Positions 57,086 to 61,981 of a stretch of DNA of 64,000 nt are shown here, one piece after another; the first letter of the stretch is position 1; the number at the start of each line of letters is the position of its first letter. The notes under the pieces are model-generated. The model had not been told where the DNA came from and did not search any database. It saw only the letters and a program-made list of their open reading frames with translations. Where the stretch lies: assembly GCF_014595975.1 (NCBI RefSeq), contig NZ_JABWGQ010000053.1, positions 1-64,000 of the forward strand, given 5' to 3'. Made by a program: the position numbers and the translations under genes. Origin of the DNA: Sphingopyxis sp. LK2115 (lineage in GTDB: Bacteria; Pseudomonadota; Alphaproteobacteria; Sphingomonadales; Sphingomonadaceae).

Positions 57086-58528
57086 ATGGCAAGCAATGTC
57101 GAAACGCTGATCCGCGGCGCTGTCGTCAAAACCATCGGCAAGGTCGCCGATTTCAACCGCCGCCGCCTTCCCCGTCCCACCGACGCCCATCCCTTCCTTA
57201 CCGGCATTCACAAGCCGATGACCGAGGAACTGACGATCGAGACGCTGCGCGTCGATGGCGAAATCCCCGCCGCGCTCAGCGGCCGCTATCTGCGCAACGG
57301 CCCCAATCCGGCCGCGGCGCCCGATCCTGCCAGCTATCACTGGTTCATCGGCGCCGGCATGGTCCACGGCATCCGCATCGAAGGCGGCACGGCAGTCTGG
57401 TACCGCAACCGCTGGGTCCGCGGCGCCGAGGCGTGCGCCGCGCTCGGCGAAGACCTGCCGCCCGGCCCACGCGAAGACCGCAATGACGCGCCGAACACCA
57501 ATGTCGTGGGTGTTGCGGGGCGGACCTTCGCAATCGTCGAAGCGGGGGGCAAGCCGGTCGAACTCGATTATGAACTCGGCACGATCGCGCACAATCCCTT
57601 CGACGGCACACTCGCAGGCCCCTATACCGCGCATCCGCATGTCGATCCCTTCACCGGCGAAATGCATGCGATCACCTATCGCGGCGACGAACCGAACAAG
57701 GTATGGCACGTCGTCCTCGACGAAGGGGCGCATGTGGTGCGTGAAGAGCCGATTGCGGTCAGCGACGGCCCCTCGATCCACGACTGCGCGATCACCGAAA
57801 ATTACGTGCTCGTCCTTGACCTGCCCGTCACTTTTTCGATGAAGATGCTGCTCGCGGGATATCGCTTTCCCTATGCGTGGAACGAAAATCACCCGGCGCG
57901 TGTCGGCCTGCTCCCCCGGCAGGGCCGCGGCGACGCGATCATGTGGGTGCCGGTCGATCCCTGCTATGTCTTCCACACCGCCAACGCTTACGAAAGCGCC
58001 GACGGCAAGGTGATCGTCGATGTCGTCGCGCACGACACGATGTTCGCCAGCTCGAAACGCGGCCCCGACAGCGAAAAGTCGCGCATGGAGCGCTGGACGA
58101 TCGACCCCGCCGCGCGCACGACGACGCGCGCCGTTATCCACGATCACGCGCAGGAGTTTCCGCGCTATGATGAACGGCTGACGACGCGGCCCTATCGCTA
58201 TGTCTATTCGGTCGCGCTGCCCGACCGGGCGACGACTGAAATGGAAATCGCCGACACCCGGCTATTCCGCCACGATCTGGAAACGGTCACGACCGCCATT
58301 CACGATTTCGGGCCAGGCCGCCACCCCGGCGAGTTCGTCTTTGTGCCGCGCAGCGCGGCGGGGGCGGAAGATGACGGCTGGCTGATCGGCCTCGTCGTCG
58401 ACATGAACGACGAGACCACCGACCTCGTCATCCTGAATGCCGATGATTTCAGCGGGTCGCCGCAAGCCGTCGTCCATCTGCCGCACCGCGTTCCGCCTGG
58501 GTTCCACGGGAACTGGATCGCGGACTGA
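57086..58528 (+). CDS. Carotenoid oxygenase (RPE65 family)
   Basis: Iron-dependent enzyme that cleaves carbon double bonds in carotenoids, apocarotenoids or stilbene-like lignin fragments. The 480-residue product has the four expected iron histidines: in YTAHPHVDP, SIHDCAITENYV, YVFHTANAYE and the last in PPGFHGNWIAD near the C-terminus. YLRNGPNPAAAPDP near residue 70 is typical. Its 3' end overlaps the convergent nucleotidyltransferase gene by 80 bp. Control by the adjacent TetR is likely. Substrate cannot be told from sequence. Confidence 0.93.
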   Translation: MASNVETLIRGAVVKTIGKVADFNRRRLPRPTDAHPFLTGIHKPMTEELTIETLRVDGEIPAALSGRYLRNGPNPAAAPDPASYHWFIGAGMVHGIRIEGGTAVWYRNRWVRGAEACAALGEDLPPGPREDRNDAPNTNVVGVAGRTFAIVEAGGKPVELDYELGTIAHNPFDGTLAGPYTAHPHVDPFTGEMHAITYRGDEPNKVWHVVLDEGAHVVREEPIAVSDGPSIHDCAITENYVLVLDLPVTFSMKMLLAGYRFPYAWNENHPARVGLLPRQGRGDAIMWVPVDPCYVFHTANAYESADGKVIVDVVAHDTMFASSKRGPDSEKSRMERWTIDPAARTTTRAVIHDHAQEFPRYDERLTTRPYRYVYSVALPDRATTEMEIADTRLFRHDLETVTTAIHDFGPGRHPGEFVFVPRSAAGAEDDGWLIGLVVDMNDETTDLVILNADDFSGSPQAVVHLPHRVPPGFHGNWIAD

Positions 58529-59309
58529 CCGACGCGGCGCGCTGCATCAGCGCCTCGGTCACGCGCAACGACCGTTCATTGTCGACGTCGATCGCCGTCG
58601 CCCCGTCGCTCACCAGCAGCGGGGCGACCTCAACCCCCATGTGGCGCGAAATGCGCCCGAAAATATGGTGGATCGGCCCCAGTCCGAAACGGAAGCGCAG
58701 CAGGTTCACGAAACCGAAAGCCTGCATCACGCGCAGCGGTTTCTTGACGAACTGCCCGCCGCCGCGAAACGCCTCGGCCGCCTTGAGCGCGCCGCGATGG
58801 CCGATCCAATAGGCGTTGCAGTTCGACACGGCGACGTCGGAAAACTCGTAGAAGCGCCGCTGGCCTTGCGGGTGAACCCTGAGCACATCCTCGCGCCGCG
58901 CCAGCGCGACCCCCGCTTCGCACCCTAGCCGCGCCGCTTCGCGGCCGATCTCGTCGATCGTCGCCGGCCTGAGCAGGCAATTGTCGGCCGTCGTGATAAA
59001 GAGCGGAAATGCCGCACGATCGGCAACGCCGAGCACCGAATCGGCCAGATTGTCGGCCGCCGGAACGACGACCAGCCGCTCGCCCAGCCGATCCACCACC
59101 GGATCGGCCAGCTCGCCCAACAGGCTTTCATGGTGCGTCGAGACGAAAATCGGCATCGCCGCCGTCGCCGCCGCGCTATCGAGCACATGTGCGATCATCG
59201 GCCGCCCGGCGACGGGGACCAGGCATTTGTCGGCGACGCCATGCGCCTGCGCGAGCGCGTCGACCGCGCCCGGCCGCCGACCCGCAAGGATCAGGATCGA
59301 CCCGCTCAC
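58449..59309 (-). CDS. MobA-like nucleotidyltransferase
   Basis: The 286-residue protein has the NTP-transferase fold: ILILAGRRPGAVDAL (a variant of the GxGxR loop), DKCLVPVAGRPMIAHVLDS (Lys 28 in place of the usual P-K), FVSTHHESLLGEL and ITTADNCLL with Asp 109 for the metal. Family members activate sugars, alcohols or cofactors with NTPs. It is coupled to the ATP-grasp gene by a 4-bp overlap. The C-terminal 100 residues (GLGPIHHIFGRISRHMGVEV) are unlike common family members. Product unknown. Confidence 0.82.
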   Translation of the reverse strand: MSGSILILAGRRPGAVDALAQAHGVADKCLVPVAGRPMIAHVLDSAAATAAMPIFVSTHHESLLGELADPVVDRLGERLVVVPAADNLADSVLGVADRAAFPLFITTADNCLLRPATIDEIGREAARLGCEAGVALARREDVLRVHPQGQRRFYEFSDVAVSNCNAYWIGHRGALKAAEAFRGGGQFVKKPLRVMQAFGFVNLLRFRFGLGPIHHIFGRISRHMGVEVAPLLVSDGATAIDVDNERSLRVTEALMQRAASVSPRSSSRGTQAERGAADGRRLAATR

Positions 59310-60334
59310 GCCGCATCCTTGCGCGCAAAACCGACGAGCTGGCGAATCATGCTTTCGGCGACGATCGTTTCAATCAGCTCGGCCTGGGTGAAACCCGCCG
59401 CCACCGCCGCCCGCCCGAACACTTTTTCGGACCACAGGTTGCAGTTGAGATTGACCTCGAGCAGCCGGATCTCTCCGGTCGCGAAATCGACGCGAAACTC
59501 GAACCGGCCATAATCGAAGGGGCGGAAAACATCGGCCATCCGGGCGGTATAGTCGATCAGGCGCGCGGCCATCGCCGCATCGTCGAACAGTTTCAGGCTG
59601 TATTTCTGGCTGCGGTCGACCAGGTCGCGCTTTTCCTGATAGGTGCGCAAATGGCCGGGATCGGCCTGTTCAAAAATCATCATCGGGAGCATGGCGGGCG
59701 CGCCGCGCAACGTGATGAGGGGCACCTCGACGTCGCTGCCCTCGATAAAGGGTTCGACGAGCGCGTCATGGTCAAGCGCGTGAACTTCGGCTACCGCGCG
59801 CGCCAGCTCGTTCCGGTCGTGCGCGTCGCGCAGCCCCCACGACGCCGAGCTGTTGTTCGGCTTGACGACCCAGCGCCGCGCGGGCGGGCAGCCCGACACG
59901 TCGACCGGCGCGCCGCGGCGGAACAGCGTCCAGCGCGCGGTCGGGACGCCGCGCGCGGCCGCTTCCAGCTTGGTCAGATGCTTGTCGTCGGACAGGCCGC
60001 GCACGATCGGCGAGGCACCGACATACGGAAGGCCGAGCCGGTTGCACAGCAGCGGCAGCAGCATTTCCGAGTTGAAAAAGCCGCCGCGATTGAGCAGCGG
60101 AAAGACAAAGTCGGCGTCCGGCCGCTCGAACAGCGCCTCATAGCGGTCGGCGACGAGCAACGGCATTCCCAGGCCTTCGAGTATCTCGCGCGTTTCGCGG
60201 TGATAGACGGCGTGATTGCCATCCTCCGGGTGAAGTCCGCCGGTCCATTTGGCATGTTTGGCGACAAACAAAAGCCGCTGCGTCGCGCGCAGGCGGTCGG
60301 GCAGCCTTGTGGGCTCAAGATGATCGGTCTGCAT
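59306..60334 (-). CDS. ATP-grasp ligase (D-Ala-D-Ala-ligase-like)
   Basis: Predicted to join a carboxylate and an amine using ATP. The 342-residue protein has RRWVVKPNNSSASWGL (ATP-binding loop, about 155-170), VEPFIEGSDVEVPLI (about 194-208) and the magnesium region RFEFRVDF through RLLEVNLNCNLW (about 285-305, Glu and Asn ligands). The N-terminus (FVAKHAKWTGG) lacks the usual Ddl start, so it is not the cell-wall enzyme. It overlaps the nucleotidyltransferase gene (ATGA) and is divergent from the PLP gene, 130 bp apart. Confidence 0.82.
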   Translation of the reverse strand: MQTDHLEPTRLPDRLRATQRLLFVAKHAKWTGGLHPEDGNHAVYHRETREILEGLGMPLLVADRYEALFERPDADFVFPLLNRGGFFNSEMLLPLLCNRLGLPYVGASPIVRGLSDDKHLTKLEAAARGVPTARWTLFRRGAPVDVSGCPPARRWVVKPNNSSASWGLRDAHDRNELARAVAEVHALDHDALVEPFIEGSDVEVPLITLRGAPAMLPMMIFEQADPGHLRTYQEKRDLVDRSQKYSLKLFDDAAMAARLIDYTARMADVFRPFDYGRFEFRVDFATGEIRLLEVNLNCNLWSEKVFGRAAVAAGFTQAELIETIVAESMIRQLVGFARKDAA

Positions 60335-60463
60335 GGCGCCGCGACACCATATCGCGGTTACACCGCGATGACCTTTTGATGACGGCGCTGCAACGCAAAC
60401 GCAAAATCTTTGTCATGCTTTCGCGGTAAACCGGCCGCGCTCTCCCCCTTCGCAGGATGTTCG

Positions 60464-61981
60464 ATGCGCCTCTCTCCCAAAGGTTTCGACACCCGCGCCC
60501 GACACCCCGACGGGCGCGACGCGGCGCGATTGACCCAGATTCTGGTGAGCGGCGGCGACCGGCGCATCCGGCTCGACGCCGCGGGGCGCAACCAATATCA
60601 CGCCAGCGCCGCGCCCAGCGACGCGCTTGCCTATGGATCATCGACGATCAGCAGCATTTCCGATCACGCCTTCGCGTCCTTGCTGCGCCGTTGGCGTCCC
60701 CGGCTGGACCGCCCCGTCGCAGCGGACGATTATGCGCGCGGACTCGATGCGATCCGCGCCGGGGTGGCCCACTATTTCGGGCTCGAAGACCGGACCGCGA
60801 TCGTCTTTGCCGCATCGGGGACCGACCTGGAATATGTCGGTCTTGCTGCCGCCCATGACGGGCGCCCGCTGACCGCGATCCTGCTCGGCCGCGACGAGGT
60901 GGGCAGCGGCTGCGTCCACAGCGCTGCGGGGCGCTTCTTTGCCGAAGAGACGGCGATTGGCGCGCGCGTCGTCGCGCAGGCGGCGATCGATCCCGTCTTC
61001 GCGGGCACCGAACTGGTCGACGTGCCCGTCCGCAACGACAGCGGCGAGCCGCGCGCATCGGCCGCTGTCGCCGACGAGCTTTCGCGGCATGTCGCGCGCG
61101 CGCGCGCCGGGGGGCGCCGCGCGGTCGTCCATGTCGTCCACGGATCGAAATCGGGCCTGACGCTTCCGGCGCTGCCCGATGTCGAGCGGCTGGTCGCGGC
61201 GCATGGCGACGCCATGACGGTCGTGGTCGACGCCTGCCAGCTGCGCATCGCGCCCGCGGGCGTGCGTCGCTATCTCGATCTGGGCTGCATCGTGATGCTC
61301 ACCGGATCGAAGTTCGCGGGCGGCCCGCCGTTCAGCGGCTTCGCGCTCGTCCCCGCGGCGATCCGTGCGCGCGTCCGCCCCTTGCCGCCGGGGCTGCGCC
61401 GGATCGCCTATCGCGCCGAATGGCCCGCCGACTGGCCAGGCGCCGATGCGCTCGACGCGCGCGGCAATTTGGGCCTGCTGCTGCGGCTCGAAGCCGCGCT
61501 GATCGAAATCGGGCGTTTCGCCGGCTTGCCATCCGACCGCATCGCGGCGGTATCGGCGCGCTTTTGCCGGCATGTTACGGACCTGTCGCATCGCCTCGGC
61601 GTGACCGAAGTGCCCGGCGCGGGCGGCGTGTCATGCCTCGCGACGCAAACGCTGCGCACGATCGACCTCTCGGCGCGATGGCCGGACTGCGACCTCGACG
61701 CCGCCCGCGCACTCCACACGCATATCGCCCGGCACGCGCGCCGCGACACGGGCCGCGAAATCCGCCTCGGCCAGCCGGTCAGGACACATCGCCTCCCCGA
61801 CGGGCGCAGCGCGGGAACGCTCCGCGTGTCGCTGTCGATGCCGCTGATCGCCGAACTCGCGGCCCTCGCGCCCGCAGCGCTCGAAGGGCGGCTCGGCGAC
61901 GATATGGCGCTGATCGAACGGGCGATTGCCGCTGCGGCCGACGTCACGCTCGATCGCAGGACTCCCGTCGCGCTCGCCTGA
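60464..61981 (+). CDS. PLP-dependent enzyme of fold type I
   Basis: The 505-residue protein has a class V aminotransferase/cysteine-desulfurase-like core: AAGRNQYHASAAPSDALAYG and SSTISSIS near the N-terminus, FAASGTDLEYVGL (about 115-127, cofactor phosphate), VVVDACQLR (Asp 256, Gln 259) and TGSKFAGGPPFSGF with Lys 283 as the likely Schiff-base lysine. It does not match any named class I know. AGGAT lies before ATG 60464. Divergent from the ATP-grasp pair; the shared 130-bp gap probably holds back-to-back promoters. Confidence 0.8.
   Translation: MRLSPKGFDTRARHPDGRDAARLTQILVSGGDRRIRLDAAGRNQYHASAAPSDALAYGSSTISSISDHAFASLLRRWRPRLDRPVAADDYARGLDAIRAGVAHYFGLEDRTAIVFAASGTDLEYVGLAAAHDGRPLTAILLGRDEVGSGCVHSAAGRFFAEETAIGARVVAQAAIDPVFAGTELVDVPVRNDSGEPRASAAVADELSRHVARARAGGRRAVVHVVHGSKSGLTLPALPDVERLVAAHGDAMTVVVDACQLRIAPAGVRRYLDLGCIVMLTGSKFAGGPPFSGFALVPAAIRARVRPLPPGLRRIAYRAEWPADWPGADALDARGNLGLLLRLEAALIEIGRFAGLPSDRIAAVSARFCRHVTDLSHRLGVTEVPGAGGVSCLATQTLRTIDLSARWPDCDLDAARALHTHIARHARRDTGREIRLGQPVRTHRLPDGRSAGTLRVSLSMPLIAELAALAPAALEGRLGDDMALIERAIAAAADVTLDRRTPVALA

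Follow-up and report, generated by a model that had tools for sequence, protein, structure and literature searches.

A conserved nucleotidyltransferase and ATP-grasp ligase gene pair with an accessory fold-type I PLP enzyme in Sphingopyxis sp. LK2115, and its possible role in the cell envelope

Results and discussion

Organization of the locus

The window analyzed here is a stretch of 64,000 nucleotides from Sphingopyxis sp. LK2115 (assembly GCF_014595975.1, contig NZ_JABWGQ010000053.1, positions 1 to 64,000 of the forward strand). Near its end lies a locus of three genes encoding a MobA-like nucleotidyltransferase (NT), an ATP-grasp ligase with the fold of D-alanine-D-alanine ligase (ATPG and Ddl, respectively) and, in divergent orientation, a fold-type I pyridoxal phosphate (PLP) enzyme (Table 1). 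A first-pass annotation had placed these three open reading frames (ORFs) here from the sequence, and all of them were present as placed, intact, and each a member of a conserved family. The ATPG and NT ORFs share 4 bp, which comprise the ligase stop and the NT start and read GTGA, not ATGA as had been annotated. The divergent gap, previously described as a shared promoter region of 130 bp, was found in the window sequence at the length given in Table 1, and its promoter role remains putative. An alternative upstream start of the PLP ORF, a TTG at 60410, is possible. The best-matching loci for the PLP gene came mostly from Sphingopyxis, the first at 86% and the next ones at about 66-75%.

Table 1. 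Features of the NT/ATPG/PLP locus in the window
Feature	Position	Strand	Description
MobA-like nucleotidyltransferase (NT)	58449..59309	-	286 aa, GTG start; Pfam PF12804
Ddl-fold ATP-grasp ligase (ATPG)	59306..60334	-	342 aa; PF07478
Divergent intergenic region	60335..60463	.	129 bp; candidate shared promoter
Fold-type I PLP enzyme (PLP)	60464..61981	+	505 aa from ATG; no named family in the searched libraries

Conservation and co-occurrence of the genes in Sphingomonadales

Gene order was compared in 87 PLP loci, of which 80 were kept from one scan (in which 120 stretches encode a relative) and seven are further neighbourhoods. These loci are mostly from Sphingomonadales; L035 is labelled Chloroflexi, L043, L045, L080, L081, L088 and L093 are labelled only Alphaproteobacteria, Proteobacteria or Pseudomonadota, and there are at least two duplicates (L048 is L013 and L091 is L016). 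The tallies of ATPG, NT, the flippase profile and ceramide-type genes, and those for the loci outside the order, come from six-frame searches, and the names CerS, MurB-like, rfb-like, the flagellar names in L127-L129 and several others were given by sequence reading or clustering, not by family search. ATPG was divergent from PLP in 84 of the 87 loci; L055 and L083 run off the contig and L071, the third exception, does not. The order is therefore conserved in relatives, and a lack of such conservation was one of the outcomes that the first-pass annotation had named beforehand as refuting its proposal. NT was present in 40 loci, and in 37 of the 87 it lay on the same strand as ATPG and abutted it.

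Since all 87 loci were found through PLP, they cannot show how frequently ATPG occurs without it. Profile searches of 147 genomes of the order (ATPG at 1e-30; NT at 1e-8, paralogues included) matched PLP in 8, ATPG in 34 and NT in 95 genomes. A single-sequence search gave PLP in nine genomes; the match in the ninth (G112) is short and weak, contains a stop and was not picked up by the profile. All 8 PLP genomes carry ATPG. An NT at E≤1e-50 was found in 33 of the 34 ATPG genomes against 23 of the 113 others (not corrected for kinship), and in 23 of the 34 an NT lay within 1 kb of ATPG, with coordinates picked by eye. One genome of the same genus as the window (G035, locus L162) is collinear with it in the order rplL, a 62067-type gene (50%), ATPG (79%), NT (77%), carotenoid oxygenase (88%), TetR and GGDEF, and is without the PLP gene; the profile found no PLP match anywhere in that genome. 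The difference between 34 and 8 genomes, together with this PLP-less collinear congener, indicates that PLP is an accessory gene that has been gained or lost. NT and ATPG are thus the core and PLP an add-on, and NT and ATPG probably act in one pathway. These results support the earlier proposal that the locus is an uncharacterised unit of several enzymes, combining the activation of a nucleotidyl type with a ligase and PLP chemistry. As a fixed pathway of three enzymes the proposal did not hold, PLP being optional and a MOP-family flippase being a fourth partner in some lineages. In L162 ATPG and the neighbouring 62067-type gene are 145 bp apart, as judged from the called ORF, which makes this locus a natural comparison for PLP function. 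None of the titles and abstract openings found in literature searches describes an NT/ATPG/PLP gene set.

Several neighbours vary between loci. The gene at 57086-58528 encodes an 8'-apo-carotenoid 13,14-cleaving dioxygenase (NF052295, 782 bits against a cut-off of 675), and its ORF and that of NT converge, with an overlap of 80 bp (58449-58528). The connection to this carotenoid oxygenase suggested in the first-pass annotation was rejected, since the gene is a neighbour in only 21 of the 87 loci, all of them near relatives of the window, and the enzyme is of a known type. The UbiE-like methyltransferase gene (23 loci; domain checked in L014) and the SdhB and RNase E neighbours are read as lineage-specific surroundings. 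In one genome (L013:5867-12195) PLP and ATPG are flanked by lipid-type neighbours, a PF13444 GNAT gene and, by eye, a PlsC-like gene, a phosphoesterase and a glycosyltransferase-like gene. ATPG is flanked by two NTs in L159 and L160, and NTs adjoin an MmgE/PrpD gene in L159, L160, L172, L195 and L196 (domain checked in L160, the others by clustering or eye).

The three proteins

The PLP protein of the window had no match at E≤1 in Pfam or NCBIfam, and PF00266, at its gathering score, gave no hit. A family alignment of 57 sequences was built from 55 of 78 ORFs (length floor 440 aa, 75% identity cut) with the window protein and L018 added by hand; the best relevant Pfam match of its members was Aminotran_5 (E 0.0092, in 2 of the 57), and NCBIfam gave nothing better than 0.045. 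The view that this enzyme is unlike named families was thus borne out. Its structural model has the fold-type I architecture of the class V aminotransferase/NifS group, a fold in common with alanine:glyoxylate aminotransferase, NifS/SufS and the Egt2-type carbon-sulfoxide lyase; in contrast to those class V enzymes it lacks Pfam or NCBIfam membership, is longer than most of the matches and is only 8-20% identical to them. K283 and D256 are invariant across the 57 sequences and, judging from fold and motif, are probably the catalytic lysine and the PLP-binding aspartate.

ATPG matches PF07478 (Dala_Dala_lig_C, 2.3e-14), and the best Foldseek match of its AlphaFold model (pLDDT 88.9) was 1iow, E. 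coli DdlB (4e-19), with TM scores of 0.72/0.80 over 323 columns. The ATP-grasp fold is therefore common to ATPG and Ddl over nearly the whole length, and the earlier statement that a Ddl N-terminus is missing from the ligase does not hold at the level of the fold, although the Ddl substrate motifs are lost. These motifs, which we take to be HGxxGEDG and EVNTxPGMTxxS, are not kept in the ATPG family (18 of 78 sequences retained by length and identity cuts), where other conserved residues stand in their place: LHG..GEDG and NTxPGMTxxS of the other Ddl-like protein of this genome become LLNRxGFxNSEM and NLNCNLWSxKV in ATPG. In addition, ATPG scored below the curated NCBIfam cut-off (TIGR01205, 75.8 bits against 245.65) and is 25% identical to that Ddl-like protein. 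A role of ATPG as the housekeeping Ddl was rejected because the Ddl-like protein with the usual motifs sits elsewhere in the genome, where it adjoins a MurB-like gene (read by eye).

NT matches PF12804 (NTP_transf_3) at 1.3e-9. By family profile (18 of 38 sequences kept by length and identity cuts) its closest solved relative is the MobA-like nucleotidyltransferase TTHA0179 (PDB 2dpw, 1.7e-16), which was deposited as a hypothetical protein and so names no function for NT.

The PLP family outside Sphingomonadales

In the class, 6 of 385 genomes matched the PLP profile, two of them from the family of the window, and in the phylum 23 of 349 did so, three of them from that family. Fifteen of the 18 further phylum matches outside the family were fetched and 19 neighbourhoods examined. 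Sixteen of these hold a decarboxylase, identified as PF00282 in L131 and L129, and 14 hold an ATP-grasp protein that differs from ATPG and is RimK-like (3vpd, 4.3e-5; TIGR00768, 8e-4, far below cut-off). Among the exceptions, L130 has a PF14397 ATP-grasp gene beside PLP instead, only the decarboxylase accompanies PLP in L132 and L133, L138 is truncated by its contig and L106 has neither a decarboxylase nor an ATP-grasp gene. No ATPG, NT or flippase of the Sphingomonadales type was detected in the 19 neighbourhoods at 1e-5. A kinship between the Ddl-type and the RimK-like families (the latter aligned from 12 of the 14 loci carrying it) received no support from profile comparison (probability 1.3), and the two were therefore treated as separate lineages. 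The pairing of the PLP enzyme with a ligase is the theme common to both settings. It speaks for a step from amine to amide and gives little indication of the final product.

In four genomes of one genus, flagellin and hook genes surround the PLP/ATP-grasp/decarboxylase operon (read from domains in L107 and from clustering in L127-L129), and each of the four operons adjoins a gene for a protein of 258-277 aa, which has no Pfam match in L107. The Shewanella sfm flagellin cluster was not equated with them: an ATP-grasp protein is present, and the available part of the text (PMC3765264) mentions no decarboxylase, PLP or pyridoxal. Two fused or extended forms were also seen, a decarboxylase and a RimK-like ATP-grasp in one 884-aa ORF (L105:10624-13278) and a PLP-family protein whose 734-aa ORF is greatly extended at the N-terminus and which lies, by eye, close to genes of the sugar-nucleotide type (L106:8605-10809).

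A flippase partner and the nucleotidyltransferases of ceramide clusters

A gene for a MOP-family flippase, matching PF01943 (Polysaccharide biosynthesis protein; one member checked), is a neighbour of PLP or NT in 11 loci according to clustering and in 12 according to its profile. It directly follows NT in L154, L155, L167, L169 and L171, where NT sits apart from ATPG. The flippase profile, made from the partners of window-type NTs, matched 31 of the 147 genomes, and in 22 of the 31 (hand count) the flippase lay within 10 kb of an NT, 7 being of the window type and 15 lower-scoring. The latter were taken as ceramide type, and the five of them that were checked (L205-L209) all proved to be so; each of these five neighbourhoods holds an NT, a flippase and a glycerophosphotransferase homologue. 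The repeated linkage of NT and flippase in Sphingomonadales points to the envelope.

The genome of the window (G000) encodes a second NT, 30% identical to NT (6e-22), and PF12804 was found in both window-type and ceramide-cluster NTs. Relatives of the second NT were read in 11 of the 19 other matched genomes, giving 12 neighbourhoods. In 9 of the 12, elsewhere in the class, this sister NT adjoins a GNAT gene read from its sequence as a ceramide synthase (CerS-like), and all nine also hold LptF/LptG and a fatty-acid-hydroxylase homologue (domains checked in L190, where a serine palmitoyltransferase (SPT) passes its curated cut-off). The remaining three (L195-L197) hold other NT types. The CerS-like neighbourhoods resemble the CC_1152-CC_1162 arrangement of Caulobacter, which contains cerS as CC_1154 and, next to it, CC_1153, required for ceramide diphosphoglycerate (CPG2) (PMC11324152). 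A second paper reports that CpgD makes CDP-glycerate (PMC12275187), and from the parallel numbering of the two papers CC_1152 would be ccna_01210 (CpgD). Such a cluster is also present elsewhere in the genome of the window (L153, G000:C33:24000-38000) and holds the second NT of the genome with a metallophosphoesterase, a further NTP transferase, an HIT protein, a CDP-alcohol transferase, a TagB-like glycerophosphotransferase homologue and another flippase. The combination of a ceramide-type NT, a MOP flippase and a TagB-like homologue in L153 and L205-L209 suggests that phosphosphingolipids in this family are extended with a unit of the glycerophosphate type.

In a tree of 48 NTs, a 100/100 branch splits the ATPG-linked NTs, together with those of L195-L197, from the ceramide-cluster NTs. 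NT is homologous to the CerS-adjacent type of the CC_1152/CC_1153 pathway, and similar flippases lie beside both. In contrast, the window NT falls outside the ceramide-cluster clade, CerS adjoins none of the 87 PLP loci as against 9 of 12 for the sister NT, and ATPG and the PLP enzyme are absent from the CPG2 gene list in the part of the published source available.

A possible pathway and its alternatives

We tentatively propose that the locus belongs to an accessory pathway of the envelope, in which an amide-bearing polar head group is assembled in nucleotide-activated form and exported, the carrier most likely being a lipid of the sphingolipid type. In genomes that have it, the PLP enzyme would work on an amino acid and so supply or modify an amine; ATPG and NT occur without PLP, and the amine must then come from general metabolism. 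ATPG would use ATP to convert a carboxylate to an acyl phosphate that is joined to the amine as an amide, and NT would use an NTP to convert a phosphorylated partner (a sugar, a polyol or a phospho-acid such as glycerate) to its NDP derivative. The head group would then be placed on a membrane lipid, and the MOP flippase would move the head-grouped lipid across the inner membrane. The order of these steps is a guess, and the substrates and the lipid acceptor are likewise inferred.

Several observations weigh against this proposal. The window-type NTs are a clade of their own, so that the link to lipids rests on paralogy; moreover, a long-branched NT near ATPG (L172_6799) groups with the ceramide-type NTs, and G059 has PLP and ATPG with a ceramide-type NT as its sole NT. 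No homologue of CerS, SPT, LptF/G, CDP-alcohol transferase, CpgD or glycerophosphotransferase was detected at 1e-10 in the flanking DNA retrieved for the 87 PLP loci, where the only lipid-type match was lipid-kinase-like (L068 and L082). This absence of ceramide genes slightly lowered our estimates for a lipid and for a new class of sphingolipid head group and raised that for a soluble small molecule, although it is not fatal, because phosphosphingolipid genes are described as scattered in Sphingomonadales (PMC11324152). An SPT-like protein occurs in 141 of the 147 genomes and so does not discriminate. Shared kinship inflates the co-occurrence figures, and the genome of the window has no match to the recurrent flippase profile at 1e-20, so that either the flippase of L153 would have to serve or export differs.

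A surface glycopolymer (capsule, O-antigen or teichoic-like), for which NT would make an NDP-sugar or CDP-polyol, ATPG would amidate with an amino acid and a Wzx-type flippase would export lipid-linked units, is a somewhat less probable explanation than the homology-based lipid assignment. It is favoured by the PF01943 match of the flippase, by the repeated occurrence of a TagB-like glycerophosphotransferase next to the paralogous NT with its flippase (PF04464 in L168; homologues in L205-L209) and by the 'sugar-transfer associated' ATP-grasp PF14397 that adjoins ATPG in L170 and has a homologue in L166. On the other hand, the neighbour families inspected show a recurring glycosyltransferase-like gene in no loci other than L013, L048 and L071, two of which are one place, and no initiating transferase or polymerase was noticed among the neighbour families that were annotated, which are not all of them. 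The same pairing of enzymes might instead yield a soluble small molecule (an amide metabolite, osmolyte, signal or secondary metabolite), in which case the link to the flippase would be incidental. We consider this unlikely given the repeated NT and flippase linkage in Sphingomonadales, even though the PF00282-type decarboxylase and RimK-like ligase outside the order, which occur there without NT or flippase, would be enough for a small amide, and the genome of the window itself lacks the recurrent flippase.

If the product were a glycan that carries an amino acid and modifies a protein or a surface filament (flagellin, for example), this would agree with the operons among flagellin and hook genes, found in four genomes of one genus; the same operon occurs in L131 and L139 with no such neighbours by eye, no systematic search having been made in Sphingomonadales, and we regard this explanation as improbable. 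Least credible is a phosphonate pathway, with NT and PLP acting like the cytidylyltransferase and the transaminase of 2-aminoethylphosphonate activation, where the cytidylyltransferase is PntC. Transaminases of 2-aminoethylphosphonate are among the fold matches of the PLP enzyme, but phosphoenolpyruvate (PEP) mutase (TIGR02320) exceeded its cut-off in 2 of 10 genomes tested (G035 and G065), and in the genome of the window it reached 27.2 bits against a cut-off of 319.55, which makes such a pathway unlikely there. The PEP mutase genes of the two genomes lie at G035:C1:815308 and G065:C1:1067532, and both organisms may make phosphonate.

Conclusions

The PLP enzyme belongs to a widespread family that has no Pfam or NCBIfam model and is repeatedly coupled to ATP-grasp ligases. 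The conserved NT-ligase set (ATPG in 34 of the 147 genomes), with its optional PLP enzyme and flippase, would offer a defined, deletable target for finding a putative envelope molecule. Sphingolipids are important to the outer membrane in this group of bacteria, and in Caulobacter the assignment of enzymes to the completion of their phosphorylated head groups has only just begun; the NT-ligase set is a distant relation of that machinery. A speculative extension of the proposal, and on balance a doubtful one, is that Sphingomonadales carry in the outer membrane a new class of sphingolipid head group with an amide or an amino acid, made through a paralogous version of the ceramide-diphosphoglycerate machinery. 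If it were true, the PLP family would be a portable amine-handling partner for ATP-grasp ligases whose partners vary, being a Ddl-type ligase here, a RimK-like ligase with a decarboxylase elsewhere (within flagellar gene clusters in one genus) and a sugar-transfer ATP-grasp protein in one genome.

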